From the NCBI RefSeq assembly GCF_007744515.1, contig NZ_CP036268.1, forward strand, positions 4,769,113 through 4,833,112: DNA of 64,000 bases, given 5' to 3'. Position numbers and translations under genes: made by a program. A model generated the notes under the pieces. That model had not been told where the DNA came from and did not search any database. It worked only from the letters and a program-made list of their open reading frames with translations. This document shows positions 2,429-64,000 of the stretch, piece after piece (position 1 is the stretch's first letter; every line of letters starts with the position of its first letter). This DNA comes from Stratiformator vulcanicus. GTDB lineage: Bacteria; Planctomycetota; Planctomycetia; Planctomycetales; Planctomycetaceae.

Positions 2429-2459
2429 GGGAACTCATTCCAATTGTTCGACGTATGCA

Positions 2460-3035
2460 TCACGATCGCGCGAAGAACTTGCTCACCGGCACTGCAAATC
2501 CCGGCAGTTGAGGCTCGCAAGATACTTCACCGTTCCCCGAGACCATCCGTGGAGGAGTATTCGGTTCGAAAATCGTCACCGACCGAAATGCCGGATCGAC
2601 GACCCAGATGAGAGTCACTCCGGCCGCGAGATAATCCTTCACCTTCGCTTCGACGTATTGATGGCTGTCGGATGGTGAAAGAATTTCAACGACTAAAGTC
2701 GGCACACCGGTCAGATAAGTTTCATCATCCGCTTGCTGAGCTAATGTCGCAGCGTCGAAGTAAACGACGTCGACGCCGAACGAGGAACCAATTTCATCGA
2801 AGTTGACGCCAGCCTCGCCGCCAAAGACTTCCCCCCTCGGCTCCGGTCGCGACTCCAGCCACGATTCAAGCAGATGACAAATTCGCGAAATGCTCTTGGA
2901 GTGCCGCTTGTTACGCCTCGTCATCGGTAACTCAATCAATTCGCCTCGAATCAACATCCGGTCAACGGAGTCGTCTTCCGGAAGCGCAAGGAACTCCTCG
3001 ATCGTCATCCGCTTCGGCGGGGAGGCGGTACTCAT
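2460..3035 (-). CDS. Uma2 family (DUF820) PD-(D/E)XK endonuclease-fold protein, copy 2
   Basis: 191 aa. It has the same architecture as the downstream copy: [21 protein letters not shown] and EAKVKDYLAAGVTLIWVVDP, matching the Asp, Glu-x-Leu and Lys elements of the Uma2 nuclease-like fold. The N-terminal 40 residues and the last 20 are nearly identical to copy 1, while the middle (residues about 50-125) has diverged more. That pattern suits a local duplication with later divergence or partial gene conversion. ATG start at 3035. No toxin, transposase or restriction partner is adjacent. Confidence 0.85.
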   Translation of the reverse strand: MSTASPPKRMTIEEFLALPEDDSVDRMLIRGELIELPMTRRNKRHSKSISRICHLLESWLESRPEPRGEVFGGEAGVNFDEIGSSFGVDVVYFDAATLAQQADDETYLTGVPTLVVEILSPSDSHQYVEAKVKDYLAAGVTLIWVVDPAFRSVTIFEPNTPPRMVSGNGEVSCEPQLPGFAVPVSKFFARS

Positions 3036-23701: not shown

Positions 23702-23780
23702 AACAAGCCGCGCACGTAGTAAGCGGATAGCGAGGGGCGTTGCCGCACACTTGATCCGCTTACTACGTGCGCGGCTTGTT
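23702..23780. repeat. R1 palindromic repeat, copy 1
   Basis: Perfect 27-bp inverted repeat: left arm 23702-23728, right arm 23754-23780, 25-base spacer. Arm core AAGCCGCGCACGTAGTAAGC. It lies 16 bases after the CCA-enzyme stop. Related copies are at 24580-24656, 34934-35014 and, decayed, 56718-56823. Confidence 0.92.
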
Positions 23781-23810
23781 GGGGTTAAGTGCTACATGAA
23801 TTCTGGGTGG

Positions 23811-23954
23811 CGGGGTGCGTGTCGCCCCCGCATCTGGGCCGTCACCTGCTTATTGCACAGATAACTCCCGCGACAGCTCTTCGATTTCGCGTAATGAGCG
23901 GTGCAAGGAGCATGCGAACTCAACCCTGCGGGGGCGACACGCCCCCGGCACCCC
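23811..23954. repeat. R2 palindromic repeat pair, copy A
   Basis: Two inverted arms (left 23813-23832, right 23926-23954) flank about 95 bases. Each arm is itself a hairpin around GGGGGCG-ACA-CGCCCCC or a truncated form of it. The right arm is intact, the left lacks its outer half. The centre shares long stretches with copy B (e.g. TGCTTATTGCACAGA). Confidence 0.85.
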
Positions 23955-24007
23955 GTGTTCGCAAAGATCCGCTTACTTCGTGCGCGGCTTGTGTGAGACG
24001 CGGGGCG

Positions 24008-24514
24008 TCAATGCTTCTTGCAATTGCCGCAGCCGCCGCCGGATTGTAGCGGAATCGGGCCCTCGGCTGAGACGGGTTGCACTTCGATCACGCCGAATCC
24101 CTTGGTGGCGGCCATGAGAGCCAGTTTCGTCGTGTCGTTGCCGCGATCACCGAGCACGTACAGGATCAGCTTCTCGCCGTCGAGCGTGCGATCGATATCG
24201 ATCAAATCGAGTTCGAGGTTCCAATCCTCGATCCGCTGCAGCCAATCAACGAACTCGGCTTCACACTGCATTCGTAGCGCTGTGGCCCGTTCGCGATCGG
24301 TTTCGTCGGCGAGACGTAACACGTGAAAGGATTTCTCGTCGACTTCTTCTTCGTCAGTCCCGGCTGCCCGAGGTTCAAGCGGTTCACCCAGCACTGCACC
24401 GGTCGGCCCGCGAACGACCAGAGCCTCATCGCGTTCAAACGCCAATCCCGCAGGCACCGCGAACTTCGCGACCTCGGGAACCTTGCCGTAACGGATGAGA
24501 ACTTGGTCGGGCAT
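24008..24514 (-). CDS. PSP1 C-terminal-domain-like protein
   Basis: 168 aa from the ATG at 24514. The N-terminal part (QVLIRYGKVPEVAKF) and the helix-strand order LRMQCEAEFVDWLQRIEDWNLELDLIDIDRTLDGEKLILYVLGDRGNDTTKLALMAATKGFGVIEVQPV follow the PSP1/RicT (YaaT) domain, where the matching text is usually of the type DGxKLIFYF. Bacillus RicT works with RicA/RicF in RNA maturation. Here the chain ends in a short Cys motif GGGCGNCKKH that could bind a metal or Fe-S cluster, as the RicT cysteines do. The gene is boxed in by the two R1-R2 composites. The function is inferred only at family level. Confidence 0.65.
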   Translation of the reverse strand: MPDQVLIRYGKVPEVAKFAVPAGLAFERDEALVVRGPTGAVLGEPLEPRAAGTDEEEVDEKSFHVLRLADETDRERATALRMQCEAEFVDWLQRIEDWNLELDLIDIDRTLDGEKLILYVLGDRGNDTTKLALMAATKGFGVIEVQPVSAEGPIPLQSGGGCGNCKKH

Positions 24515-24579
24515 GTGCAATCGATAAAGGGGATCGTCTCAGTATCTCTCGAAGGAGTGATCGAGGGAAGTCTATCGCC

Positions 24580-24656
24580 AACAAGCCGCGCACGTAGTAA
24601 GCGGATTAAGTGTGCGGAAACGTTCGAGCTATCCGCTTACTTCGTGCGCGGCTTGT
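24580..24656. repeat. R1 palindromic repeat, copy 2
   Basis: Left arm 24580-24606 is identical to that of copy 1. The right arm 24631-24656 differs by one base (TTCG for TACG), giving one mismatch in a 26-bp stem. Spacer 24 bases. It lies 65 bases upstream of the PSP1-like start and may separate its promoter from the hom gene end. Confidence 0.92.
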
Positions 24657-24866
24657 ATGGGGGATGCTGCATGAATTGAGGGTGGCGGAGTGCGTGTCGC
24701 CCCCGCGTCTGGGCCGTCGCCTGCTTATTGCACAGACAACTCCCGCGACAGCTTCTTCGGGGAGTGCTGGAAATGATGCAAGAACCGATCGGGCTCTACA
24801 CTGCGGGGGCGACACGCCCCCGGCACCCGCGCGAAGTTTCATTCTCGCACTTCGTGTGCGGCTTGT
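24580..24866. repeat. R1-R2 composite repeat, copy B
   Basis: R1 (24580-24656), R2 left arm (24691-24707), R2 right arm (24801-24828) and a decayed R1 right arm (24849-24866), in the same order as copy A. Outside the arms, stretches such as TGCATGAATT, GGGTGGCGG, TCTGGGCCGTC, TGCTTATTGCACAGA and AACTCCCGCGACAGC are shared. Both copies are in direct orientation. They fill the 361-base gap between the PSP1-like and homoserine dehydrogenase genes. Confidence 0.85.
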
Positions 24867-49555: not shown

Positions 49556-50563
49556 ATGCGGGTGGGAGTACTGGGAGCGACCGGCTACACGGCGCTTGAA
49601 CTGCTGAAGATTCTCGTGCGGCATCCCGATGTCGAAGTCACTGGTCTGACGACGCGGCAGGAGCACACGCCGCACGTCTCGGAGGTGCATCCGAGCCTCA
49701 CGGGTCGGCTCGATCTGAAGTGCGAAGACCTCCGTACAGCCGAACTCGCCGAGCGGGCCGAGTTGGTTTTCTGCGCCGTACCGCACGGCGCGGCGATGGC
49801 GGCAGTGCCGGAACTACTAGAAGCCGGTTGCAAGGTCATTGACCTGAGCGCCGATTACCGACTCAGCGACCCGGCGGTCTATGAATCCTGGTACGGCCTC
49901 GTCCACACCGACCCGACCCGATTGGGGACGACCGTCTATGGGCTACCTGAGCTGTTCGCAGATGACATTCCCGGCAAAGACCTGATCGCGAACCCCGGCT
50001 GCTACACCAGCACGTCGATCCTTGGCCTCGCCCCGCTTCTGGCTGAAGGACTGATCGAACCAACGGGGATCATTATCGACGCCAAGAGCGGCGTCTCCGG
50101 GGCCGGTCGGACACCCAAGATGACGACGCTGTACCCCGAGTGCAACGAGTCGATCAGCGCCTACGCCGTCGGGCGGCACCGACACACACCGGAAATCGAG
50201 CAAGTGCTGTCGAAGGTCTCTGGCAAGTCGGTCGAGGTGCTCTTCACACCCCATCTGGTCCCGATGGATCGCGGGATTCTCGCCACGATGTATGCCACGC
50301 CGACGGAGCAGCGCAGCGATGACGACCTGCTCGAAGCGATGCGAAACTACTACCGGGGCAAACCGTTCGTCCGTGTCGTCGACCGACTCCCCGCCACCAA
50401 GGACGTCTCCGGCACCAACTTCTGCGACGTCACCGTCCGCCAATGCCGCGGCAAGGTGCTGGTACTCTCGGTGACCGATAACCTCATCAAAGGCGCATCG
50501 GGCGTGGCGGTGCAGAATCTGAATTTGCTGGCCGGGTTCGACGAGACCGCGGGGTTGTTGTGA
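49556..50563 (+). CDS. argC: N-acetyl-gamma-glutamyl-phosphate reductase
   Basis: 335 aa. NADPH-dependent third step of arginine synthesis. NADP loop [17 protein letters not shown] at the N-terminus; catalytic Cys149 in [17 protein letters not shown]; His in [11 protein letters not shown]; and the conserved [10 protein letters not shown]. An AGGAG site eight bases before the ATG at 49556 fixes the start. Its partner argJ lies 1.6 kb further along on the same strand. Confidence 0.95.
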
Positions 50564-50614
50564 ACAAAGCTAAACGTCTCTTTTTGGCAATAGAGATCAC
50601 CAAGTGGCGGAGGT

Positions 50615-50827
50615 TTACTCTCTGTCGCCAGACACCCCGCTGACGCCGACAGGCTGCGTCGAATGCGTCGCCGATTTTGGCTGCCACATCGGGCGACCAG
50701 ACTCCGCGGCACGACTTGCCGCATCGGCGGCGATCGCCGCGACATCACCACCAAACCGTTCAGATATATCGCGCCGGACGCGATGAATCTCTTCGATGGG
50801 GCTTTCAGGTTTCGGTTTCTGAGTCAT
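50615..50827 (-). CDS. Small antitoxin-like protein, partner of the PIN toxin
   Basis: 70 aa. The first 40 residues (PIEEIHRVRRDISERFGGDVAAIAADAASRAAESGRP) resemble short helical proteins often found beside PIN toxins, with the pattern V-R-R-D-I ... D-V-x-A-I-A-x-D-A. The start at 50827 overlaps the toxin stop (50805) by 23 bases. In this order the toxin is first, the reverse of the usual VapBC order, so assignment as antitoxin is tentative. Confidence 0.55.
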   Translation of the reverse strand: MTQKPKPESPIEEIHRVRRDISERFGGDVAAIAADAASRAAESGRPMWQPKSATHSTQPVGVSGVSGDRE

Positions 50828-51293
50828 CTCCGAGCAACTCCTCCGGTGTGCAAATTACCGGGATCGGGACACCGGTGTCTAAAAGAACCTGATGAATGCG
50901 GGGCAATATTTTCGCGTTTGCAATGTGCTTGCAGTTCCACGTCAGCAAGTATTGTATTCGATGATGGGCAACTGTGGCGATGTGCAATGCGTCCACTTGG
51001 GCTTTTGCAGGCAGGATCGCCCTCGACATGATCTCACCGGCAATTTGAGTGATTTCAGGCGCATCAGGAAGAAGCGGGATTCCATCCAGCGCTTGCAGCC
51101 GATCCGCGGCGAGAATTGGATCGCCAGCGGAAACTTCGTCGATCACGAATTGGGACACGACCAGCTCGTAATTGTCCCGTTCGGCTTCCCACCATCGATG
51201 GGTCAGCAATTGGCGAGCTGCCATCACGACTTGCGAACTCGGACGTTGTCGGAGATAGCTGACAACCGAGGTCTCGATGTAAACGGTGGCCAT
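50805..51293 (-). CDS. PIN domain toxin (VapC-like)
   Basis: 162 aa. The PIN fold is marked by VYIETSVVSYL at the N-terminus (Glu7 in the place of the usual Asp, as in the YIETS subfamily), Glu/Asp in VIDEVSAGD, Asp101 in AQVDALHIATVAHH and TWNCKHIANA. VapC-type proteins are Mg-dependent RNases. The region is lower in GC (about 48% over one 60-base stretch) than its neighbours argC and argJ, suggesting a late arrival. Confidence 0.85.
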   Translation of the reverse strand: MATVYIETSVVSYLRQRPSSQVVMAARQLLTHRWWEAERDNYELVVSQFVIDEVSAGDPILAADRLQALDGIPLLPDAPEITQIAGEIMSRAILPAKAQVDALHIATVAHHRIQYLLTWNCKHIANAKILPRIHQVLLDTGVPIPVICTPEELLGDDSETET

Positions 51294-51385
51294 TACACCA
51301 CTCTATCCGGCAAAGAGCGAAGGAGATATACGGGGCTAGAACGCAAAGACTGCCCAACCTGAGGCAAGCACGCTACCCCTTCGTT

Positions 51386-52057
51386 CTAGATACTTGGGGG
51401 GAGGAAATGCCATGCCGCCACATTGCTCAACAGGACGATGAAGTTACCGCCGGCGTGGAGCAGAAATGGGATCAAGATGCTCTCGCTGATGACGAATGCC
51501 CAAGCGATCAAAAATCCACCAAAGATGTTCTCAGGACTCGGATTTCCGTAGACCACGTGGAGAACGGCGAATACGGCTCCGCTAGTAAAAATCGTCTTCC
51601 AGCCGCCGATAGCTGCGGCCAGTGGAACGCACAGGATGAAGCGGTAAATTGCTTCTTCCATCGTCGGTGCGAGGACGCACATCTGCCAGAAGTAACTGGT
51701 AAAAAAAGCCGGTGGACATCGTCGAATCGGCAACGTCTGACCGAACAATATTAGCACTCCGGCATAAAGCCCGAGCGCGATCGCAATAACAAGAGCCAGG
51801 CCGAACACGGATTTAGTCCACCAGAGCCATCCTTGTCTTGGCGTGAACCGTAGCCCCAATGACTGGGCGTCACCATCCGCCAGGCCGACAATAGCTGCAC
51901 AGCCAACCAAGGCCAGGACCAGCCTTTTCTCCTCATCGTAGGCGCCCGGAAAGCCTACGATCAAGAAGTCGAGCACCGTCACGGTGAGCGCGAGACTGAC
52001 GGCGATCGCACGATTTCGTGGCCTTGATCGTAAGCAACTGCCAATCGCCGTCTTCAT
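51386..52057 (-). CDS. CPBP family intramembrane protease
   Basis: 223 aa from the ATG at 52057. Six or so helices; motifs EEAIYRFIL (Glu-Glu...Arg), [19 protein letters not shown] (His) and [12 protein letters not shown] (His-x3-Asn type) are those of CPBP/CAAX-like intramembrane proteases. The same fold is fused to an ABC permease at 29434-31845. Unclear substrate. It lies between argC and argJ on the opposite strand, beside the PIN toxin pair. Confidence 0.82.
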
Positions 52058-52130
52058 TGTGTCCGGCCTATTTCGCGGCAGAAGTCGGTCCAATGTATCG
52101 GTTTTTCGAAACCAGATTATACTCCGCAAC

Positions 52131-52167
52131 CCGACAGGGAGCGCTCCCTTGCGGTCGCGGCTCAACG
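52131..52167. repeat. R3 family right half
   Basis: Centre GGGAGCGCTCCC and right arm GCGGTCGCGGCTCAACG of the R3 palindrome, with the left outer arm missing. It lies 30 bases before the argJ start. Confidence 0.6.
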
Positions 52168-52196
52168 AATTCTCTGACGCTCGATCAACAATACCA

Positions 52197-53399
52197 ATGC
52201 CTGACCTCCATCTCCCGCTCGGATTCCAATATGCCGGTGTGCATTGCGGGGTGAAATCCGATGCGAAGAAGCCCGACCTGTCGCTGTTCGTCTCTGATCG
52301 CCCCTGTGCGGCGGTCGGCGTTTACACGCAGAATCGCGTTGTCGGGGCGCCGGTGATCGTTGATCGGGCGCGGACGCCGAGTGACTCGGTGCGGGCGGTC
52401 GTGATTAACTCAGGCAATGCGAACGCCTGCACCGGTGAGCGGGGAGTCGAAGATGCTCAGCGGATGACCGCGCTCGTTGCAATCGCCGTCGATGCGGCGA
52501 GGGAGGACGTGCTCGTCTGTTCGACGGGAATCATCGGGCATCACCTGCCGATGGAGCAGATCGAGAACGGGATCGGCCTCGCCAAAGGTGTGTTGAGCGG
52601 TTCCGCCGAGTCATTGGAATTGGCCGCCCGCGGCATGATGACGACCGATACCTTCCCCAAGATCGCCTCACGCTCCGAAGACTGGGACGGCACGATTGTC
52701 ACGGTGACCGGCGCCTGCAAAGGGGCGGCGATGATCGCTCCGAACATGGCGACGATGCTCGCGGTCGTGATGACGGACGTCGCGATCGACGCGACTCAAG
52801 CAAGCATGATTTTGAAGGAAGCCGTCGACGAGTCATTCAACTCGATCAGCGTCGACGGACACACCAGCACGAGTGACACGGTGCTGCTCCTCGCCAATGG
52901 AGCCTCGGGTCGACCGGCCGAGACTCCCGAAGAGATCGAATCGGTCCGGTCGATGGTGACGCTCGTCTGCCAGAACCTTGCCGAGATGATCATTCGCGAT
53001 GCCGAGGGGGCCGAGCACTTCGTGCGGATCGAAATCGCCGGCCTGCCCGATCGAAATGACGCCCGCAAAATTGCCAAGACGATCGCCGAGGGAGCCCTGT
53101 GCAAGACGGCAATCACCGGCAACGACCCGAACTGGGGCCGGTTCGTCTCCGCGGCGGGCTATTCGGAGGTCGAATTCGACCTCAACCAGCTCTCGCTAGA
53201 CATCAATGGGGTGCGTGTCTTCGAATCCGGCTCGCCGGTTGTGTATGATGAGGCATTGGTCAGCAGCCGAATGGCCGAGGGAGAGGTCAACCTCCACCTC
53301 GACTTCGGCGGCGAGACCGACCCGGCCGGTCCGGTGGTGTTTCTGACGAGCGACCTGACGGCAGAGTACGTGCGACTGAATTCGGAATATACGACCTGA
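52197..53399 (+). CDS. argJ: Glutamate N-acetyltransferase / amino-acid acetyltransferase
   Basis: 400 aa. Moves acetyl from acetylornithine to glutamate, or makes acetylglutamate from acetyl-CoA. Cleavage motif [14 protein letters not shown], where Thr186 becomes the N-terminal nucleophile of the beta subunit after self-cleavage. Other family blocks: [39 protein letters not shown] and [15 protein letters not shown]. The ATG at 52197 gives the family start [14 protein letters not shown]; the frame upstream to 51984 is unsupported. Confidence 0.95.
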
Positions 53400-53407
53400 T
53401 CCGAAGT

Positions 53408-53562
53408 GGGTGCCGGGGGCGTGTCGCCCCCGCAGTGTTGAGCCCGATTTGATGTTGCACAGTTTCAAATAGCAAAATTTCAATTAGTTGGTCGGATTGT
53501 CGATCAGCGGTGCAAGGAGCGATTGACGTTCTCCCTGCGGGGGCGACACGCCCCCGGCACCC
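53408..53562. repeat. R2 palindromic repeat pair, copy C
   Basis: Perfect 28-bp inverted repeat (53408-53435 with 53535-53562) around 99 bases. Each arm also folds on itself (GGGGGCG-TGT-CGCCCCC). It begins nine bases after the argJ stop and ends 129 bases before putA. Part of the centre (TTGCACAG, GCGGTGCAAGGAGC) recurs in composite A. Confidence 0.92.
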
Positions 53563-53690
53563 GATGACTTATTGGATCGACCCGGAAAGACGCAGGAACG
53601 GATACCTGTTGAACGAAAACGCTTCGCGGCGAACAATTCTCTTTCCGTCCGCGGATACGAGTCCGCGCGAGCCGGTATGGGAGAGTCTAC

Positions 53691-56690
53691 ATGAGCGTTT
53701 CCACTGAAAACGCCGATACAACGAGCGCCGTTGAGGAGGAAACTCGGCGGATCGCGCAAGACGTTTGGCATCGGCTGGCGCATCGCCGTCCGTCGCTGTT
53801 CGAACGCCGCTGGTGGGATGATCGGCTGATGGACTGGGCGATGGCCGACGAATCGGTCAAAGTCCAGATGTTCCGTTTCGTCGACGTGCTGCCGATGCTC
53901 CGCACGCACGAATCGGTCACCCGACACCTGCGGGAATACTTCGAAGAGGCAAAGCGCCACCTGCCGTTGGCGGCGCGGCTGGTGGTCGACGCCGGCCCGC
54001 CCGATTCGATGCTCGGCCGGGCCGTCGCCGTCAGCGCCCGCAGCAATGCGACCCGCATGGCGAAGCGGTTCATCGCCGGTGAGACGGTCGACGAGGTCTT
54101 TCACTCGGTGAAGGAACTCCGCGACTCCGGTTTCGCCTTTACGCTCGACTTGCTCGGTGAGGCGGTCATCAGCGATGTCGAGGCCGATCACTATCAGCAA
54201 CAGTATCTCAAGCTGATCGAAGGACTGAGCGGCCGCGTGGAAGAATGGCCGGAAGATCCGCAGCTCGACTGGGATCACGAGGGGCGTATCCCGAGGGTCA
54301 ATATGTCGGTCAAGCTGTCGGCCCTCGATAGCCACTTCGACCCGACCGATCCCGATGGAACCTCGGGGCGGGTCAAAGAGCGACTGCGGGAGATTTTCAG
54401 AACGGCCCGACAACACGGGGCGTTCATCAACATCGACATGGAACAGTACGCCTACAAAACTCTCACGCAGCGAATCTTCAAAGAGACGCTGTCCGAGCCG
54501 GAGTTTGCGGACGTTGCCGATGTCGGCATCGTCAATCAGGCCTATCTCGTCGACAGTGAAGACGACCTGCGATCGCTCAACGAATGGGCGCGAAAACGCG
54601 GGACGCCGATTCATGTCCGGTTGGTCAAAGGTGCCTATTGGGACTACGAAACCGTCGTGGCGAAATCCCGCGGCTGGCCGATCCCCGTCTTCCGCCAGAA
54701 ATGGCAATCGGACGCCAGCTTCGAACGACAGTCGAAGTATCTGCTCGAGAACTACGAGTATCTTCGCCCCGCGATTGCGAGCCACAATTTGCGGAGCATC
54801 GCGCATGCCCTCGCATGGGCCAAAGTGCTCGACGTTCCGCAACATGCTTATGAGTTGCAGATGCTCTACGGCATGGCAGGGGACCCGGCCGACCTCTTCG
54901 CAGAGCGGGGTTATCGTGTCCGCATCTATACACCGTTCGGGGCTTTGGTGCCGGGGATGGGCTACCTCGTTCGGCGTCTACTCGAGAACACTTCTAACGA
55001 TTCTTTCCTCCGGCACAGCTACGAGCCGAACGCTTCGATCGAGGACCTGATCATGAATCCGAATGACATCGGCGCGACAGCGCCCCCGGTCGAAGACGAG
55101 CCGTACGCCGAATTCGAAAACGAGCCGCTCGTCGACTTCACGCAAGACGAGAGCCGGGAGGCAATGCTCGCTGCGCTAGAGGAAGTCCGCGATCAGTTCG
55201 GTCGAGAATACGCCCTGGTCATTAACGGCCGGGCGATCGACACCTCGAAGCGGTTGGAGTCGGCCAATCCTTCCAACAAGAAGGAAAAGCTCGGGCACGT
55301 CTCAATGGCGACTCCGGCGCAGGCGACCGAGGCCATCGACGCGGCCCGCAATGCTTTCAAAGCATGGTCGGAGACGCCGGCCGATCGACGTGCCGAGTTA
55401 CTTGAACTCGTTGCCGCCGAAATGCGGATGCGGCGGTACGAACTCGCTGCGTGGATCGTATTCGAAGTCGGCAAGCCTTGGGCGGAAGCCGACGGCGACG
55501 TGGCTGAAGCGATCGACTTCTGCCGCTATTACGCCCAACGGGTCCGCGCGATGGACGACCCGCGCGCCGTCAATATTCCGGGCGAGGAGAACTCCTATTG
55601 GTACCGACCCCGCGGGGTCGCGGTCGTGATTTCACCATGGAACTTCCCGCTGGCGATCCTGACCGGCATGACGACCGCGGCACTCGCGACGGGCAACACG
55701 GTCGTGATGAAGCCGGCCGAGCAGTCGTCGATCATCGCCTTCAAACTGATGCAGATCTTCCAGAACGCCGGCATCCCCGATGGCGTCGTCAACTATCTAC
55801 CGGGTGTGGGTGAAGAAGTCGGCCCCGAACTCGTGGGCAGTCCCGATGTCGACTTGATCGCCTTTACCGGCTCGAAAGATGTCGGCTTGGCGATCAACGC
55901 GACGGCGGCCGACACCGATGATCGGCAAACATCGGTCAAGCAGGTCATTGCGGAGATGGGCGGCAAGAACGCCATTCTGATCGATGAGGATGCCGATTTG
56001 GACGAAGCCGTCGTCGGCGTCATGGAAAGTGCCTTCGGCTATGCCGGGCAGAAGTGCTCGGCCTGCTCTCGGGCGATCGTGATCGGAGACGTTTATGACG
56101 CCTTTATCGAGCGGCTGGTGGAAGCCACGAAGAGCTTGCACATCGGTCCCGCCGAGGAATCAGGAACACAGGTCGGCCCGGTCATCGACAAAGAAGCACT
56201 GGCGAAGATTCAAAGCTATATCGAGTTCGCCGATGAAATAAACGAGCCGACTTACCGCGCGGATGTGAAAAGTCTCGCGAAGCAAGGACACTTCATCGGC
56301 CCGCACATTTACACCGAGGTCGCTCCCGAAGACCGGATTGCGCAGGAAGAAATCTTCGGCCCGGTCCTCGCAGTGATACGAGCCGGCGACATCGACGAGG
56401 CGATCGAAATCGCCAACAACACAAAGTTTGCCCTCACCGCGGGCATCTTCAGCCGCAGCCCCGTCAACCTGCGGAAGGCCGCGTCGCGGCTGCAGGCGGG
56501 CAACATTTACCTCAACCGCGGCATCACCGGTGCCCTCGTCAATCGCCAGCCGTTCGGCGGCTACCACATGTCAGGCATCGGCTCGAAGGCGGGAGGACCC
56601 GATTACCTCTTGCAGTTCGTCGTGCCGGTGAACGTAACCGAAAACACCATGCGGCGCGGCTTCGCCCCTGAGAAAGACAGCGAAGCATAA
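53691..56690 (+). CDS. putA: Bifunctional proline dehydrogenase / L-glutamate gamma-semialdehyde dehydrogenase
   Basis: 999 aa. Oxidises proline to glutamate at the membrane. The FAD-binding proline dehydrogenase barrel fills about 50-480 (NMSVKLSALDSHFDP, DMEQYAYKTLTQRIF, HVRLVKGAYWDYE, DLFAERGYRVRIYTPFG). The aldehyde dehydrogenase half follows from about 500, with VISPWNFPLAIL, the NAD loop VAFTGS-type LIAFTGSKDV and catalytic Cys789 in GQKCSACSR. It lacks the N-terminal DNA-binding domain of E. coli PutA, as in short type A enzymes, so it does not self-regulate. ATG at 53691; no clear ribosome site. Confidence 0.95.
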   Translation: MSVSTENADTTSAVEEETRRIAQDVWHRLAHRRPSLFERRWWDDRLMDWAMADESVKVQMFRFVDVLPMLRTHESVTRHLREYFEEAKRHLPLAARLVVDAGPPDSMLGRAVAVSARSNATRMAKRFIAGETVDEVFHSVKELRDSGFAFTLDLLGEAVISDVEADHYQQQYLKLIEGLSGRVEEWPEDPQLDWDHEGRIPRVNMSVKLSALDSHFDPTDPDGTSGRVKERLREIFRTARQHGAFINIDMEQYAYKTLTQRIFKETLSEPEFADVADVGIVNQAYLVDSEDDLRSLNEWARKRGTPIHVRLVKGAYWDYETVVAKSRGWPIPVFRQKWQSDASFERQSKYLLENYEYLRPAIASHNLRSIAHALAWAKVLDVPQHAYELQMLYGMAGDPADLFAERGYRVRIYTPFGALVPGMGYLVRRLLENTSNDSFLRHSYEPNASIEDLIMNPNDIGATAPPVEDEPYAEFENEPLVDFTQDESREAMLAALEEVRDQFGREYALVINGRAIDTSKRLESANPSNKKEKLGHVSMATPAQATEAIDAARNAFKAWSETPADRRAELLELVAAEMRMRRYELAAWIVFEVGKPWAEADGDVAEAIDFCRYYAQRVRAMDDPRAVNIPGEENSYWYRPRGVAVVISPWNFPLAILTGMTTAALATGNTVVMKPAEQSSIIAFKLMQIFQNAGIPDGVVNYLPGVGEEVGPELVGSPDVDLIAFTGSKDVGLAINATAADTDDRQTSVKQVIAEMGGKNAILIDEDADLDEAVVGVMESAFGYAGQKCSACSRAIVIGDVYDAFIERLVEATKSLHIGPAEESGTQVGPVIDKEALAKIQSYIEFADEINEPTYRADVKSLAKQGHFIGPHIYTEVAPEDRIAQEEIFGPVLAVIRAGDIDEAIEIANNTKFALTAGIFSRSPVNLRKAASRLQAGNIYLNRGITGALVNRQPFGGYHMSGIGSKAGGPDYLLQFVVPVNVTENTMRRGFAPEKDSEA

Positions 56691-56717
56691 CGGCGATCGA
56701 TATCAACGCGACCAATG

Positions 56718-56823
56718 CAGCCGCGACTGGCAAAGAGCGGATCAAGTCACCGGGTTGCATTTGGTGGGGCGGATAGAGACATCAGCCGCTCGTTGCTTAA
56801 TCCGCTTACTGCCGTGCGCGGCT
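56718..56823. repeat. R1 palindromic repeat, decayed copy
   Basis: The right arm AATCCGCTTACTGCCGTGCG (56799 on) keeps most of the R1 sequence. The left arm (56718-56742, CAGCCGCGACTGGCAAAGAG onwards) is degenerate. The gap of 325 bases between putA and the PQQ lipoprotein gene holds nothing else I can support. Confidence 0.55.
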
Positions 56824-57015
56824 CTATTGGCGATTCGCAAAGGTGATGCATTCATTGGCGACTCCACCGCTATCATAGAGCGGGCGGGAGCGAATGTCCG
56901 GCCCAATCGGCTGCCTGGCTCCAGAAAGACCGGCAACCAACGCCACTTCTGGTTACCATGTTCCGAACTCGATCACTGATCGTCGAACAAAACTGACCAT
57001 CGAACAAAGCTGTCT

Positions 57016-58413
57016 ATGACAACTACACCGATAGCAAGACTCTTCATCCTTGCCGCAGCGATTGTCTTCCTCGGCTGCGGTCGCCCTCAAGGCGGCGGCC
57101 CGGGCGGAGCGACGGAGGAAGTCACCGAGATCAAAACGTCGGTTTCCGAAGGGAAGACGCTCGTTGCCGACGACGACCCGTATATGCTCTCCCCGGCGAA
57201 GCCAGGCGTCGAGATCGAGCCCGATGCCAAGCATGGTTGGCCGCAATGGCGGGGTCCGAATCGCAACGGCGTTGCCCCCAACGTCTCCCCTCCGCTGGAA
57301 TGGTCGGCTGACAACAATGTGATTTGGTCGTCAAAGGTGCCGGGACGCGGCCATTCGTCACCCACGGTTTATGGCGGGCAGGTCTATCTGGCGACAGCCG
57401 ACGAACAGGCACAAGCGCAATCGCTCTTGGCCTTCGATGCCGAAACAGGGGAGCCGACTTGGTCGGCTGTAGTCTCCAAAGGAGGATTCCCGCCTGACAA
57501 TCGAATGCATCCCGAAAGCAGCTTCGCTTCCTCGACGCCGGCAACCGATGGCGAGCGAGTCTATATCAGCTTTCTACATGACGCGGCGATTTTCGTTTCC
57601 GCCTTTTCGTTAAGCGGCGAACCAGTGTGGGGCGAGGTCGACGCCGGTCCGTTCGACTCGCGCTTCGGTTACGCCCCCTCGCCGGTGCTCTATGGCCCTT
57701 ATGTGATCATCACCGGGGATCACTCCGGCGGCGGGTTTATCGCCGCACTCGATCGCGCCACCGGCGAGGTCGTTTGGCGGACGGCCCGGCCGGAAGCCTC
57801 CAGCTATGCGACTCCGCTCATTGTGACGATGGCAGGCCGCGCTCAGGCGATCATCGGCGGAGCGGATCGGATTGCCTCATTCGATCCCGCGTCTGGCGAT
57901 GAGTTATGGAGCATCGATGGAACGACCGAAGCGGTAGCCGGCACCGCTGTTTACGCCGAAGGTCTCGCTATTGCCAGCGGGGGCTATCCCGGATCGGAGA
58001 CACTCGCGGTGTCGGTCGGCGATACGCCAAAGCCCGCTTGGCGGGAACGCTCGAAAGCCTATGTGCCTTCGCTGCTCGCCAAAGACGATCTACTCTTTCT
58101 CGTATCCGACAAGGGGCAGACTTGGTGCTTCGATGTGGCGACCGGCGAGGAACAATGGAAGACACGCTTGCGCGGATCGCTGTTCCGCGCGTCCCCCGTT
58201 TGGGCAGACGGGCACGTCCTCGCGACAAACCACGAAGGCCTCACGCACGTCTTTAAAGCAACAGGATCAGGCTTCGAATCGGTTACCGAGAATCAACTCG
58301 GCGAGGAGATGTATTCGAGTATCACCGTCGTCGGCGACCGGTTGTATCTAAGAGTTGCCGACGGCCGCGGCCCGCAACGTCAGGAGACGTTGTACTGCGT
58401 GGGTGGCGAGTGA
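57016..58413 (+). CDS. PQQ-like beta-propeller lipoprotein
   Basis: 465 aa. Signal MTTTPIARLFILAAAIVFLGCG with lipobox F-L-G-C, lipid Cys near residue 21. Eight or so propeller blades, e.g. WSSKVPGRGHSSPTVYGGQVYLA, LLAFDAETGEPTWSAVVSKGG, FIAALDRATGEVVWRTARPEAS, IASFDPASGDELWSIDGTTE and TWCFDVATGEEQWKTRLRGSLFRASPVW. It is a BamB-like scaffold anchored to an outer or inner membrane leaflet. Paralogue of the genes at 37038-38306 and 38851-40149. Confidence 0.88.
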   Translation: MTTTPIARLFILAAAIVFLGCGRPQGGGPGGATEEVTEIKTSVSEGKTLVADDDPYMLSPAKPGVEIEPDAKHGWPQWRGPNRNGVAPNVSPPLEWSADNNVIWSSKVPGRGHSSPTVYGGQVYLATADEQAQAQSLLAFDAETGEPTWSAVVSKGGFPPDNRMHPESSFASSTPATDGERVYISFLHDAAIFVSAFSLSGEPVWGEVDAGPFDSRFGYAPSPVLYGPYVIITGDHSGGGFIAALDRATGEVVWRTARPEASSYATPLIVTMAGRAQAIIGGADRIASFDPASGDELWSIDGTTEAVAGTAVYAEGLAIASGGYPGSETLAVSVGDTPKPAWRERSKAYVPSLLAKDDLLFLVSDKGQTWCFDVATGEEQWKTRLRGSLFRASPVWADGHVLATNHEGLTHVFKATGSGFESVTENQLGEEMYSSITVVGDRLYLRVADGRGPQRQETLYCVGGE

Positions 58414-58473
58414 TCAAAAGGGTCGATGACTTCGGACGGCGCAGGATGCAACTATCCCGGCGAGGACGCTTTG

Positions 58474-59124
58474 ATGAAATCGACCCTCCTGACATGCCTC
58501 GGCTCGTTAATCTTGGTCGGATCGATCAGTGTTTCCGTTGCCGGTGATCTTGAAGAGAGCGCCAACTCTTTCGAACGCATTGCTGATCGAATCGAAGCAG
58601 GCCTCCCCGCTGGCTGGGAAATCGTTCGGTCCAACCAACCGGCGATACTGATTCGGTCAAGCGAGCCGCTGCTTGCAGAAAGGATCATATTCAACCCCAA
58701 TCCCGATGATGCTCCGCAAAAGGAGCCGCACTCCATTGAGATATCCTTTCGAATCGTGCCGTACTTGTCACCGCTTGAGCAGGCTCGGCAAACGTCATTC
58801 AACGCCGCGAAGGAATTGAAGCGAGAACGATTTGCCAAAGAGCAGCTTTCGGGGATCCGCTCAGCGCACATGGGGCCAACGCCATTGCCCCCTTACGCCT
58901 TCAAACCCGAGTCGCCCGACGAACAGGCACGGGTCCGCCGGTATGCCTTCCTATGGGTTGAGACGGAGCCCGAGCGACTGCCCACCCATCATGCCGAAGG
59001 GCTCTCCTTCGTCATGTTCCGGGACCACTACTTAAGGATTATCGATCCTTCCAAGGCCGAAGAGCTCGAGGCCGTCATCAGCGCTGCTGAAGAAATCGTG
59101 GTGCCGTATTCGAATGACGAGTAA
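58474..59124 (+). CDS. Secreted protein of unknown function
   Basis: 216 aa from the ATG at 58474, with an AGGA site eight bases upstream. Signal peptide MKSTLLTCLGSLILVGSISVSVAG, cut before Asp-Leu-Glu-Glu. The mature chain (about 190 aa) is mixed alpha-beta (ERIADRIEAGLPAGWEIVRSNQPAILIRS, VPYLSPLEQARQTSFNAAKELKRE) and ends in a helix (AEELEAVISAAEEIVV). No family named. It follows the PQQ lipoprotein with a 60-base gap and may be transcribed with it. Confidence 0.6.
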   Translation: MKSTLLTCLGSLILVGSISVSVAGDLEESANSFERIADRIEAGLPAGWEIVRSNQPAILIRSSEPLLAERIIFNPNPDDAPQKEPHSIEISFRIVPYLSPLEQARQTSFNAAKELKRERFAKEQLSGIRSAHMGPTPLPPYAFKPESPDEQARVRRYAFLWVETEPERLPTHHAEGLSFVMFRDHYLRIIDPSKAEELEAVISAAEEIVVPYSNDE

Positions 59125-59162
59125 TTCGATGATGCGGCCGAGACTCAGCGTTTAGAGAATTT

Positions 59163-59185
59163 CAGCCGTCGTCCATTCTTCGTCG
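59163..59185. repeat. Direct repeat flanking the TIR cassette, distal copy
   Basis: CAGCCGTCGTCCATTCTTCG plus TCG, 23 bases, identical to 60346-60368. Read on the minus strand it continues for six in-frame codons (Lys-Phe-Ser-Lys-Arg-stop), as an alternative end for the methyltransferase gene. Confidence 0.95.
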
Positions 59186-59231
59186 GCAGTCCAATTGAAG
59201 ACTTTATTGCACATGAGTTCCGTATGCAAAA

Positions 59232-59843
59232 TCACTCGGGAGCGGCAGTGAGTCGACCCACGGTTGGAAGATCACCGCGTTTTCGCATCTTGATGAGTTC
59301 CTGAACCAACCGCTCTGCTCCACGGACGATACCTGCCTTCTCGCGAAATCGAGCTGAAATTTCTCCAGACAATGATGGTCTGCGAACAAGTTGGTCCGTC
59401 GGGATTCCAACTTCAGAATAGACGTCTCGCAATGTAGAGCGATCTTCGTCTGAAAACGGCTCAATCGTTGGGCGAATCATTTCCGGGAACGAGTTGAGCT
59501 GGCTGATCGGCACCATCCTGTATTCGCGGAGAAACCGTGGGATCGACTGAGGTTCGACACCACTGTAGAGACTGAAGATTGGCTTATTCCAAGCCATCGC
59601 AGCGCCTGCCTCGTAGGCAAGATTTGGTGACTCGCGGAAAGACGGCGTCAGCAGAAAAACAACGGCACTACACTCTGCAAGGGAATCACGGATTTCGGCG
59701 CTGAGGTCTTCTCCCGGTTGAGGCACATCATGCTGGAAAACACCGAGCCCTCCTTGGTCTAGTTCATGAGCGACCAAGTCGGCGAGACTGCTGTCTGCGG
59801 AGCTATGTGACAGAAAGACATCAAATAATTGCACGCTACTCAC
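59232..59843 (-). CDS. TIR domain protein, second gene of the pair
   Basis: 203 aa. TIR fold at about 6-130: FDVFLSHSSADSSLADLVAHEL (box 1), GVFQHDVPQPGEDLSAEIRDSLAECSAVVFLLTPSF, then NLAYEAGAAMAW with the predicted NAD-hydrolysing Glu78. A C-terminal tail of about 70 residues is helical (RDVYSEVGIPTDQLV, EKAGIVRGAERLVQELIKMRKRG). The start is GTG at 59843, with an AGGA site seven bases upstream, and overlaps the stop of the first TIR gene by four bases (GTGA). Bacterial TIR proteins act as NADases or NAD-derived signal makers in antiphage defence; that role is inferred here. Confidence 0.85.
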   Translation of the reverse strand: MSSVQLFDVFLSHSSADSSLADLVAHELDQGGLGVFQHDVPQPGEDLSAEIRDSLAECSAVVFLLTPSFRESPNLAYEAGAAMAWNKPIFSLYSGVEPQSIPRFLREYRMVPISQLNSFPEMIRPTIEPFSDEDRSTLRDVYSEVGIPTDQLVRRPSLSGEISARFREKAGIVRGAERLVQELIKMRKRGDLPTVGRLTAAPE

Positions 59844-60289
59844 GTGATCTTCCTTTCGATTCGACCGACCAAGTCTTCGAGATAGTCATCGATTTCGTCA
59901 AGTTGATACCCACGTCTTCGTGTCACAAAGGCAGGAAGATTGTTCGGTTCAGCGTGGTAAAAGAATGGGACAATCTGGACATCGTCTCTCATATCAGCCA
60001 TTCCCATTTCATAATGGACCCACGGCCTTTCAGCAGACTCCGGTGTCATAATAACGCAAAACTCGTGGCATTGCTTAATCGCATCCCGAATTGCTTCAGG
60101 GATGACATCTCCGCCGTTGATATCGCGGTCGTCACGAAATGTTGTCGCGTTCTCGTGGCAAGCCTCGATCTTCTCGCAGATCACCTTCGCGAGAAATTTA
60201 TCATACGTCGCATGGCTTACGAACACGCGGAATTCAGCGTCATCCTCTTGGCCAGACTTTTTCCGTTTTCGGCTGGTTGGTCGGGGCAC
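59840..60289 (-). CDS. TIR domain protein, first gene of the pair
   Basis: 149 aa, little more than one TIR domain. A basic N-terminus (PRPTSRKRKKSG) is followed by FRVFVSHATYDKFLAKVICEKIE, TTFRDDRDINGGDVIPEAIRDAIKQCHEFCVIMTPES and WVHYEMGMADM, with the predicted catalytic Glu94. I chose GTG at 60289 because a GAGGG site lies six bases upstream; the TTG at 60295 would touch that site. Stop overlaps the next TIR gene by four bases. It starts about 40 bases after the methyltransferase stop (60328) on the same strand. Confidence 0.85.
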   Translation of the reverse strand: MPRPTSRKRKKSGQEDDAEFRVFVSHATYDKFLAKVICEKIEACHENATTFRDDRDINGGDVIPEAIRDAIKQCHEFCVIMTPESAERPWVHYEMGMADMRDDVQIVPFFYHAEPNNLPAFVTRRRGYQLDEIDDYLEDLVGRIERKIT

Positions 60290-60327
60290 TGCCAACCCTC
60301 AGTATATGGTGACCTAAAGTTTTTTTG

Positions 60328-61296
60328 CTATTTAGCATAGTTAGACAGCCGTCGTCCATTCTTCGTCGACGGCGCACTAACGAGCGGGTTCTCCGGTCCG
60401 GTCAGTGGATCGCCGACGACGATGTCGGACAGTCGTTTTTCGGCTTGGCGGGCGTAATCCTTCGACATTTCGCAGCCGAGAAATGATCGGCCCAGCTTCT
60501 TCGCGACCGCGAGCGTCGTTCCGCTGCCAGCGAAGGGGTCGAAGACGATATCGCCTTCATTCGAACAGGAGCGGATGATCCGCCCGAGGAGTTGCTCGGG
60601 CATCTGGCAGCCGTGCCAGCCGGCTCGTTGCTTGAACGTGCCCGCGACGCGGGGGAAGTACCACACGCTGCCGTCGTCGCGAAAACCGGTCGGAGCGTCC
60701 TGAGGACGCAGGACCCATTTCTCTTCGTCACCCTCGGCAACTTCCGGCAGCGATCCGTCGTGATTTGGGATCATCACCCAAGTGTCATCCGGCAGTCGGC
60801 CCTTCGGATTAGCCCGTTTATCGCCGTAGACGAGTTGCCTGGCGCTCGGCACGCGGACGTCGGGGTCGTCGGCATTAAAGGTGAAGTTCTTCGGGTCCTT
60901 CACGAAGTAAAGCAGGTGCGCGTGCGAGCGGCTGAACTTGTGCGTGCAATTCACGCCGAAGGTGTAGTACCAGATGACCCAACTGCGGAGCTTGAGCCGC
61001 TCTTCGTTCTGGCGGGTGAGCATCACTTTCATCTCGGCGGCATACTCATCGCCGATGGCCAGCCAAAACGTGCCATCCGGTTTGAGCAGCCGGGCGATTT
61101 CGCTCGTCCACTCACCGCACCAGTCGAGGTAGTCATCGCAGTCGCGGCGGTCGTCGTACTCATCGTACGAGTATCCGATGTTATACGGCGGATCGGCGAA
61201 GACGAGGTCGAGGCAGCCTTCCGGAAGCTTTCGCATCTGCTCGACGCAGTCGCCACGGATCAGTCGGTCAAATTTGAGCTGACGCTGTTTCGCCAT
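60328..61296 (-). CDS. DNA adenine/N4-cytosine methyltransferase, orphan
   Basis: 322 aa from the ATG at 61296. Catalytic motif [17 protein letters not shown] (34-50) comes before the AdoMet-binding DPFAGSGTT (253-261), the beta-class order shared with CcrM/HinfI-type enzymes. No restriction gene is adjacent. The last codons (TKNGRRL) lie in the 23-bp direct repeat 60346-60368, after which the chain ends SNYAK. The second copy of the repeat would end KFSKR instead. Divergent from mutY. Confidence 0.93.
60346..60368. repeat. Direct repeat flanking the TIR cassette, proximal copy in the methyltransferase 3' end
   Basis: Identical to 59163-59185 over 23 bases; mismatches begin on both sides (A for T before, A for G after). 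It codes for the TKNGRRL end of the methyltransferase. Confidence 0.95.
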
Positions 61297-61422
61297 TGTC
61301 GTTTCGATCCTGTCAGGAACATCATCGGATGGCACACTCCAGCGCGATCTCCCTCGTTCGTCAAGCGAGACCGCCGGGACTACACTTCCGGCGGCCACTT
61401 GCCCACAGAGTTTTTACAATCT

Positions 61423-62625
61423 GTGTTCTCACAACTCGTCGAATCATTTGCCTTGTCGAAGCTGCTGACCGAATCCCCCGCCAAGCTGAAGCGGTTCCGA
61501 GAGAAGCTCCTCGCGTGGTACGCCGAACGAGGTCGCGATTTGCCGTGGCGACGGACTTGTGATCCGTACGCAATCTGGATCAGCGAGATCATGCTGCAGC
61601 AGACGACGGTGGCGGCAGTGATCCCCTATTTCGAGCGGTTTCTCGATCGATTCCCGACCGTGCAGCAACTCGCTGCCGCCGAAGAGGCCGATGTCCTCAA
61701 GTTATGGGAGGGTCTCGGTTATTACAGTCGCGCTAGAAATCTGCACGCGGCCGCACAGGATATTGCGACCAACCACGCGGGTTCGTTCCCGCGTACGGCT
61801 GAAGAACTGCAATCGCTCAAAGGCATCGGCCGCTACACCGCCGGGGCGATCGCGTCATTCGCATTCGATGAGCGGGCGCCGATCGTCGAAGCCAATACGC
61901 AGCGGCTTTACTGTCGCCTCTTGGGCGAGCGCGGCGATCCGAAATCGACGGGCGTCCAAAAGACGTTATGGCAATTCGCTGAGACGATCCTCCCGAAAAA
62001 TGACTGCGGCCTCTTCAATCAAGCACTGATGGAACTGGGCGGGACCGTCTGCACGATCGAGTCGCCTTCGTGCGGCGACTGTCCGGCATCTCGCTACTGC
62101 GTTGCCGCGCGGCATGATCTGCAACAGCAAATTCCGGCGGCCAAACGTCGGTCGAAACCGACGCCGCTGGTCGATGTCACAGTGGCAGTCCGCAAAGACG
62201 ACCGATATCTCATCCGCCAACGGGGCCTTGGCGAATGGTGGACGGGTCTGTGGGATTTCCCACGGTTGACCCTCGACGAGACGCTGCTGACACGCATCAC
62301 GTTACCATCGGTCCCGGCACGCTCTTCCCGAGACCAACCGAATCTTTTCACGCGCGAACCGGTTTGCGAGGAATTACGGAGTACGATCGAACAGTTCATT
62401 TGTGACCAAACCGGCGTGTCCTGCCGTCTCAGGGGGGCCGAGTTGGAAGTGCGACATGCCGTAACACGATACAAAATTCGGCTATTTTGCTGCCTGGCGG
62501 ACTATCAATCGGGCCGACTTTCGAGCGATCAGCCGCTCAAATGGGTGAGGGTCAACGCTCTTTCAGAACTCGCGTTTTCGCAGCCGGGCCGCCGTTTTGC
62601 CGATCGATTGATCGAAATTTCCTAA
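61423..62625 (+). CDS. mutY: A/G-specific adenine glycosylase
   Basis: 400 aa. Removes adenine opposite 8-oxoguanine. Catalytic Glu55 in ISEIMLQQT, helix-hairpin-helix LKGIGRYTAGAI (132-143), iron-sulfur cluster CTIESPSCGDCPASRYC (Cys210, 217, 220, 226), and a C-terminal NUDIX-like recognition domain (VDVTVAVRKDDRYLIRQRGLGEWWTGLWDFPR). The position of the second catalytic acid (Asp138 in E. coli, in LDGNV) holds Glu156 (VEANTQR). The frame has no ATG before the conserved part; I chose GTG at 61423. The long open frame upstream, antisense to the methyltransferase, is not coding. Confidence 0.9.
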   Translation: MFSQLVESFALSKLLTESPAKLKRFREKLLAWYAERGRDLPWRRTCDPYAIWISEIMLQQTTVAAVIPYFERFLDRFPTVQQLAAAEEADVLKLWEGLGYYSRARNLHAAAQDIATNHAGSFPRTAEELQSLKGIGRYTAGAIASFAFDERAPIVEANTQRLYCRLLGERGDPKSTGVQKTLWQFAETILPKNDCGLFNQALMELGGTVCTIESPSCGDCPASRYCVAARHDLQQQIPAAKRRSKPTPLVDVTVAVRKDDRYLIRQRGLGEWWTGLWDFPRLTLDETLLTRITLPSVPARSSRDQPNLFTREPVCEELRSTIEQFICDQTGVSCRLRGAELEVRHAVTRYKIRLFCCLADYQSGRLSSDQPLKWVRVNALSELAFSQPGRRFADRLIEIS

Positions 62626-62795
62626 GTGAAGACAAGAAGTTGCGTCGAATTCAGTGCTCGTCTCCCGTTTCTTCCAATACGGCCGTATTCGGCGGCTGAT
62701 TTGCATCATTGTTGCCTCACAGATCGGTTGACCCGATAAAAAGAGAGAAAGAACACGTATTCACGGAGCTTGTTGGGTTCAATCCCGGTTAGAAT

Positions 62796-63782
62796 ATGAT
62801 CGATAATAGTGCGCGACCCGTGTCGAAGGATTTGCCGGCCCAGCGCGGCAGGTCGCACGGAGATCGCAGCCACCGAGGTTCTCAGTCCAAGCGAGATCGA
62901 ATCGATCCGATGAGTTCAGCCGCCCCGGCCAAAGCTCGTTCGAAGGCGGTGTCCCCGCCCCCACCGGCCCCGAATTGGGTTTCGGGTTCGCGGTCCGCCA
63001 TCGCTACTGAAGCCGATGCCGATCAGCGGACCATCGACCAACGCGTCTTCGACTGGCTTGTCAGCGTTACGCCGAAGGCCCTGCTGATATCGCTCCTGCT
63101 TCACTGCGCGGCCTTAATGATTGCCGGCCTCGTCTTCATATCCGATCCGTTTGAGAACGGCTTGACGACCGTTGCCGGATTCAATCGCGAGGAATCCGAG
63201 AGTCTTGACCAGCTCATCGACACATCGTTCGAGCAACTTTCGGGCGGTATGGAGGTCGAACAGACAACGGTGCCGGAATTCGAGCCGGTCCGCATGGAGA
63301 TGGAACTCAACGAGGCACTTGCTAAGGCGGATGAAGCTTTAGAAGTGAAGACCGATTCGATCGGTCAAGGACTCGGTGAAACTGCCGGAAATGCGGCCGG
63401 GCTTGGGAAGAGCGAGCGGGAAGAATTAGGGCTCGCCAAGCCGGGAGGGAACGCGATCACAAAGGGGAACTTCACGGCATGGACAGACCCGGAAGACCCC
63501 AAACCACTGGAGCCCTATGTAATCTTCATCGAGATCAAACTTCCGGAAAAACTTCGGAAAAAAATGAAGAAGTATCCTAAGGCTGATCTGTCTGGATTCG
63601 TCATCGGCACGGACACTTATCAGCAACCGGTACCCGGACCGGGAATGCCGGCACTCCCGATCAAAGGCAATATCGTGCAGCTTTCCGTGATTGTTCCGGG
63701 ATCGTACGAGTTGGTTCAGGACACGATCGTGATCAGATCGAAGATGCTCAAAGAGCAGCAGATTCTGAAGCTCACGTTTTGA
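62796..63782 (+). CDS. Single-pass membrane protein of unknown function
   Basis: 328 aa (an ATG at 62910 would remove 38 residues). A basic, Pro-rich N-terminus is followed by one membrane helix (about 93-115, PKALLISLLLHCAALMIAGLVFI). The rest lies outside and is acidic (FNREESESLDQLIDTSFEQL, ELNEALAKADEALEVKTDSIG), ending in a strand-rich domain (YVIFIEIKLPEKLRKKMKKYP, GNIVQLSVIVPGSYELVQDTIVI). The order (Pro-rich, anchor, extracytoplasmic part) recalls TonB-like proteins, but the TonB end domain is not recognised. It precedes the gene at 63802. Confidence 0.55.
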   Translation: MIDNSARPVSKDLPAQRGRSHGDRSHRGSQSKRDRIDPMSSAAPAKARSKAVSPPPPAPNWVSGSRSAIATEADADQRTIDQRVFDWLVSVTPKALLISLLLHCAALMIAGLVFISDPFENGLTTVAGFNREESESLDQLIDTSFEQLSGGMEVEQTTVPEFEPVRMEMELNEALAKADEALEVKTDSIGQGLGETAGNAAGLGKSEREELGLAKPGGNAITKGNFTAWTDPEDPKPLEPYVIFIEIKLPEKLRKKMKKYPKADLSGFVIGTDTYQQPVPGPGMPALPIKGNIVQLSVIVPGSYELVQDTIVIRSKMLKEQQILKLTF

Positions 63783-63801
63783 CGACGCCGAGACGACGGC
63801 G

Positions 63802-64000
63802 ATGAAGACGCTGTGGGTCGGTAATTTCGACTTTGAGCATCGGCTCGCAACTCAGACCGACGGTCTGAATCACCTGCTGCCGGAAAAGCTTCGGGCGATC
63901 AATCGGCGTCTCGCTCCACTGCTTCGACCGCTGCTGCGACCCGGTGACGCCATCTTTATCAACGGGCCGTCCATCGAAGGTCCCGATTTCATCGGGTCAG
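63802..64000 (+). CDS. Protein of unknown function, cut by the right edge
   Basis: The frame from the ATG at 63802 is open to the window end: MKTLWVGNFDFEHRLA..., then LRAINRRLAPLLRPLLRPGDAIFINGPSIEGPDF. It is not recognised. The start lies 17 bases after the previous stop, so both genes are probably in one transcript. The 66 visible residues are not enough to assign a family. Confidence 0.55.
   Translation, partial: MKTLWVGNFDFEHRLATQTDGLNHLLPEKLRAINRRLAPLLRPLLRPGDAIFINGPSIEGPDFIGS

Follow-up and report, generated by a model that had tools for sequence, protein, structure and literature searches.

The described phenomenon nearest to the locus considered here, and the main rival to the explanation that we favour, is insertion with long target duplication, for which the source studies are said to be those of Nobusato in 2000 and Furuta in 2010. 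Restriction-modification (R-M) genes are found inserted with long, variable duplications of the target, “in the order of 100 bp” (PMC3031569, PMC3874152). As described in these two papers, the insertion is a small unit that has no transposase of its own and lies between direct copies of its target, the length of which varies. The present locus is similar in these respects, with a target sequence copied at both ends over 23 bp here and over 79 bp at a second locus (G264), within the tens to hundreds of bp expected of an insertion of the R-M type. Three further systems invite comparison: Thoeris, in which a second thsB gene can occur (PMC7272460); SPARTA, the short-Argonaute TIR-APAZ system; and the orphan CcrM/YhdJ-like N6 DNA methyltransferases.

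The 64,000-nucleotide stretch of Stratiformator vulcanicus DNA that was analysed (the window) contains a gene for a predicted DNA methyltransferase (MTase) followed by genes for two TIR proteins, TIRa and TIRb, and a direct repeat of the MTase 3′ end brackets the TIR pair, as is expected of an integrase-mobilised genomic island at a gene 3′ end. The features are as follows.

59145-59162, minus strand: old-looking MTase 3′ tail, KFSKR-stop (sequence and joined reading frame)
59163-59185, minus strand: far copy of the 23-bp repeat, TKNGRRL (sequence, genome search, resampling)
59232-59843, minus strand: TIRb, a TIR domain plus a C-terminal “RKxGKLP” domain (Pfam TIR_2, 4.3e-13; AF2; Foldseek)
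59250-59465, minus strand: C-terminal helical domain of TIRb, common to orphan MTases and GIY-YIG proteins (HMM, alignment, AF2)
59840-60295, minus strand: TIRa, a stand-alone TIR domain (Pfam TIR_2, 1.9e-13; alignment; profile matches)
60328-60345, minus strand: present MTase 3′ tail, SNYAK-stop, 32 bp ahead of the TIRa start (sequence)
60346-60368, minus strand: near copy of the 23-bp repeat, within the MTase reading frame (sequence, genome search)
60328-61296, minus strand: N6/N4 DNA methyltransferase, MTase (Pfam N6_N4_Mtase, 6e-56; relatives); the listed ORF runs to 61398, and ATG 61296 is the likely start
61423-62625, plus strand: MutY-type adenine glycosylase, divergent from the MTase (Pfam HhH-GPD and NUDIX_4; synteny)

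Our preferred, though tentative, explanation is that these genes form a three-gene MTase-TIRa-TIRb cluster in which the 23-bp repeat represents two MTase 3′ ends, the result of gene-end capture by homology.

The 23-bp repeat and a second gene-end duplication

As the earlier note had reported, positions 59163-59185 and 60346-60368 are identical (23/23, spacing 1183). Both read CAGCCGTCGTCCATTCTTCGTCG and translate on the minus strand as TKNGRRL, and exactly two copies are present in the whole genome, even when 3 mismatches are allowed. Direct reading also bears out that the near copy continues into SNYAK-stop and the far copy into KFSKR-stop. Joined to the far tail (59162-59145), the MTase frame stays open through to the stop codon, and 20 bp separate the end of this tail from the stop codon of the convergent gene at 58426-59124, as though the MTase had formerly finished here. 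The 1183 bp between the copies contain two TIR ORFs and nothing else; no tyrosine or serine recombinase is encoded inside the segment, just as the earlier note had said of an integrase, and no tRNA was found in 50000-64000.

It is scarcely credible that the repeat arose by chance or by misassembly. It is known from assembled sequence alone, but the genome is a single contig and 98.7% complete; 200 first-order Markov resamplings of 57000-63000 gave direct repeats of at most 16 bp, compared with the 23 bp observed; and an independent analogue exists at hisH. Elsewhere in the window, further clusters of long direct repeats are seen at 2313-3011 (up to 38 bp, spacing 607) and at 23702-24830 (up to 28 bp, spacing 660-880).

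The analogue is a TIR pair in genome G264 (L087), read in one genome of that genus, which is flanked on either side by a 79-bp copy of the hisH 3′ end, stop codon included (95% identity between the copies), and in which TIRa is truncated. Gene-end-bracketed TIR pairs thus occur elsewhere too. Of the ~33 pairs for which the sequence on either side could be read, 2 show a clear gene-end duplication, and the other pairs have nothing comparable. By our own count over 513 kb, clusters of isolated direct repeats of this type occur at a low frequency, about one per 64 kb, at which two tight brackets in a set of ~33 pairs are more than would be expected. The duplication of gene ends is real, but the loci share no attachment sequence: the MTase repeat (23 bp) and the hisH repeat (79 bp) are unrelated, and a common attachment site was rejected on this ground.

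Other candidates at the TIR loci did not hold. At L078 and L083 the repeats are part of neighbouring genes that are themselves repeated or duplicated, and they were rejected as clean gene-end copies, and the 12-15-bp matches near gene ends at L071 (mqnA) and L079 (asd) are within chance. In an empty-site comparison of the mqnA locus with L103, the flanking genes are contiguous there, at a divergence too great for boundaries to be placed at the level of single bases.

The earlier note had read the repeat as the mark of site-specific recombination, which would have taken place at an attB site in the MTase 3′ end, with the integrase since lost or acting in trans. The position at a gene end, the remade 3′ end and a repeat length typical of att cores all fit this reading, but we consider it highly doubtful. 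The cassette carries no recombinase, its repeat bears no relation to the one at hisH, and a search for other cassettes between copies of the 23-mer yielded no third copy in the genome and no match in 2.9 million viral contigs. Nor was the pair found in the collections of plasmids, phages and viruses that were searched: TIRa has no relatives in phage records and viral contigs and, in plasmids, only weak partial TIR matches (~30%) on three of them, and TIRb has none in plasmids or viral contigs. Mobile carriers of the pair were rejected on this basis.

The TIR pair and its methyltransferase neighbour

Both proteins have the features of a TIR-domain NADase, judged by sequence and model, namely a TIR fold and a conserved catalytic glutamate. 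In TIRa, Glu96 is invariant in an alignment of relatives and accompanied by an RDDRDIxGGD motif, and the profile matches solved TIR structures, AbTIR among them. In TIRb, Glu78 is conserved in >90% of TIRb proteins, and the AF2 model (pLDDT 91) matches the TIR domains of SARM1, BtpA, AbTir and SPARTA in Foldseek. From these features we infer TIR activity and a role in defence: upon infection, the domains would be predicted to cleave NAD or to cyclise it. In the TIRb of genome G020 (L065:4467-5081), the glutamate that almost all other TIRb proteins retain is absent, and thus one TIR of that pair may be non-catalytic.

TIRa matches are present in 58 of 397 genomes of the class, with ~22 loci being close relatives, and a scan of 84,980 species genomes gave 65 TIRa loci, the close ones nearly all from Planctomycetota. 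The TIRa-TIRb pair is conserved at ~38 loci of this phylum, always in the order TIRa-TIRb in the close relatives with both flanks readable. Its neighbours vary and include genes that we take, from recognition of their sequences without a family search, to be mqnA, asd (twice, before truA), guaA, hisH and others. In two pirellulal genomes, sister pairs lie between asd and truA (L079 and L109), a case of stable inheritance at one site. Between L073 and L078, which represent two families, the DNA of the pair is 82% identical across 1051 bp, and this identity ends at the limits of the pair, which points to a compact unit of ~1 kb that travels or persists alone. The pair is a conserved planctomycete module that has repeatedly come to lie next to this MTase family, and its most likely role is that of an NAD-consuming or NAD-signalling anti-phage system.

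The earlier note had also remarked on the low GC content of the segment. The difference itself stands (46-53% inside vs 57-63% outside), but the pair is lower in GC than its flanks at 38 of 39 homologous pairs, by 6 points on average. Low GC is therefore a property of the pair and was rejected as a mark of recent insertion.

MTase relatives are present in 56 of 59 genomes searched, and the MTase is the sole neighbour family to reach 5 of the 39 pair loci (within 3 kb): the window, G020, G034, L106 and L113. In the TIR tree, these five pairs span at least 3-4 lineages (the window with G020; G034; L106; L113). At L113 the MTase is divergent from its TIR pair, an adjacency that is not explicable by insertion at an MTase 3′ end. 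Since the partnership recurs among relatives, repeated pairing is likelier than a one-off site-specific jump.

The pairs of the window and of G020, which belongs to another genus, are sisters with 100% support. The G020 pair comes after the orthologous MTase, again in a P62796-MutY-MTase context, and no repeat of the 23-bp type surrounds it. G034 likewise carries the TIR genes without the repeat, an arrangement that, by the earlier note's own reasoning, speaks against insertion at this site. The TIR proteins are ~50% identical between the window and G020, compared with 23/23 identity of the repeat, which makes the repeat younger than the MTase-TIR association. The pair may thus predate both genera, and the repeat may stem from a later event. 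The G020 MTase gene also contains an in-frame repeated CCCTCTCCCGAGGGAGAGGGG-type palindromic stretch within its catalytic part (L065:3345-3600).

This shared context could be taken to mean that an MTase-TIRa-TIRb operon was inherited vertically and that the far copy is what remains, ~41 bp at the 3′ end, of a second MTase gene that once stood after TIRb and was otherwise deleted. The synteny, the sister TIR pairs and the finding that G020 is the best relative for MTase, MutY and TIR alike are all in keeping with vertical descent. An extra gene and its near-complete deletion would be required, however, and identity at all 23 positions, third positions included, demands two very similar MTase genes; we regard this history as distinctly unlikely.

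Insertion with long target duplication, in which the SNYAK tail would be an accidental read-through into cassette DNA, is possible, if somewhat unlikely. It accounts for exact 23-bp copies at both ends, for a frame that is open once the insert is removed and for the 79-bp hisH copy in G264, and the variable repeat length and unrelated targets agree with the published R-M cases. It is at odds with G020, where no duplication accompanies the sister pair at the corresponding MTase. The differences between the hisH copies are also mostly synonymous (3 of 4; a weak signal, P about 0.1), a pattern not favoured by decay of a non-coding copy after insertion and expected if the copies derive from two functional hisH genes.

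The ends of the MTase relatives bear on which of the two tails is original. Many relatives have a C-terminal extension after an SAPST..GRxL motif that finishes in a GIY-YIG-like domain; the MTases of the window and of G020 are short forms without it. The earlier note had expected KFSKR and SNYAK ends in related genomes without and with the cassette, respectively. Most short-form relatives do have basic, KFSKR-like tails, but SNYAK is found in none of the relatives compared. Its picture of a cassette landing at the gene end is upheld insofar as the 3′ end looks remade and an old-looking end lies beyond the TIR genes; G020 speaks against a simple recent landing, and so does the recurrence of MTase-TIR adjacency in other lineages.

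The repeat and the G020 association are best reconciled by gene-end capture, that is, by a homologous MTase-TIR segment that replaced or invaded the resident MTase. The KFSKR end would be the resident gene's own, and the SNYAK end would have arrived with TIR-bearing DNA from outside, or been remade by it, through recombination at the end of the gene. This DNA, consisting of a related MTase end and then TIRa-TIRb, would have paired with the resident MTase, and its far side would have rejoined the last bases of that gene. The MTase upstream would thereby stay functional, and ~41 bp of the resident gene would be left on the other side of TIRb. We infer the direction and order of these events, and their mechanism, from the gene arrangement; no empty-site relative or donor is known, the nearest MTases being 60-73% identical.

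The RKxGKLP domain and a possible link to methylation

The C-terminal domain of TIRb comprises ~65 residues (AF2 model, pLDDT 88), and in the proteins scanned no model of Pfam or NCBIfam matches it. When an HMM built from TIRb C termini only was run against 10,274 ORFs, TIRb proteins were followed, below E 1, solely by this MTase family: L113 (4e-5), L106 (1e-3) and L032 (9e-3), then L025 and L011. Iteration brought in most long-form MTases at 1e-12 to 1e-16, values that are partly circular. Across the wider set of genomes, the domain is also present in stand-alone GIY-YIG proteins and, duplicated, in others. Two kinds of protein are seen at L183, L184, L185, L187, L186 and L189: stand-alone ones that combine a pair of RKxGKLP domains with GIY-YIG, some of them with an N-terminal hydrophobic stretch, and small ones composed only of two RKxGKLP domains.

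Long-form MTases (L066, L032, L011, L191, L192 and others) combine one or two RKxGKLP domains with a GIY-YIG-like domain at the C terminus, which suggests that planctomycetes have a methylase-nuclease in a single chain. As a domain found in DNA enzymes, RKxGKLP may bring TIRb to DNA. A fold search with the domain alone gave matches too weak for reliance, the best (E 0.64) being to Zeste/GT-1-type DNA-binding domains. Because the domain is found in proteins unrelated to the MTase or the TIR proteins, domain sharing alone is no proof of a working partnership.

One speculative model, which we hold to be improbable, is methylation-gated TIR immunity. The MTase would mark host DNA, and TIRb would sense an unmarked invader through its DNA-reading C-terminal domain and, with TIRa, trigger NAD depletion. 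This would be restriction-modification logic with a TIR effector replacing the nuclease, and its classical counterpart would be found in related MTases, where this domain is continued by a GIY-YIG nuclease-like end.

Comparison with known systems

The window TIR proteins give weak matches to profiles of the Thoeris protein ThsB: PADLOC ThsB models give partial matches at 5e-8 and 4e-5, and NCBIfam ThcB4 falls below its cut-off. Unlike in Thoeris, the TIR proteins form an obligate pair, and TIRb has a different C-terminal domain. No ThsA is found among the window neighbours, and no effector gene recurs across the 39 pair loci; PF20016 and PF18185 gave no signal in the genome, with the controls equally silent. 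As in SPARTA, a TIR domain is joined to a second domain and accompanied by a partner protein, and the TIR domain of TIRb superposes on SPARTA TIRs with a Z of about 16 at 2.3 Å. In contrast to SPARTA, no Argonaute or APAZ domain is seen, and the partner is a second TIR.

The MTase resembles orphan CcrM/YhdJ-like enzymes in that its catalytic domain matches the PRK11524 and CcrM models. It differs from them in that these matches lie under the curated cut-offs and in that many of its relatives have RKxGKLP domains and a GIY-YIG-like end. We know of no description of DNA methylation linked to TIR immunity; if the pairing is functional, it would tie the two together in a phylum whose defences have so far received little attention. 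The RKxGKLP domain, for which Pfam and NCBIfam have no model, connects DNA methylases, GIY-YIG proteins and TIR proteins.

The main differences from the R-M insertions are that the cargo is a TIR pair rather than a restriction enzyme and that the copied target is both times the 3′ end of a gene. With the gene-end duplications seen here, insertion with long target duplication would come to include TIR genes as well as restriction genes.
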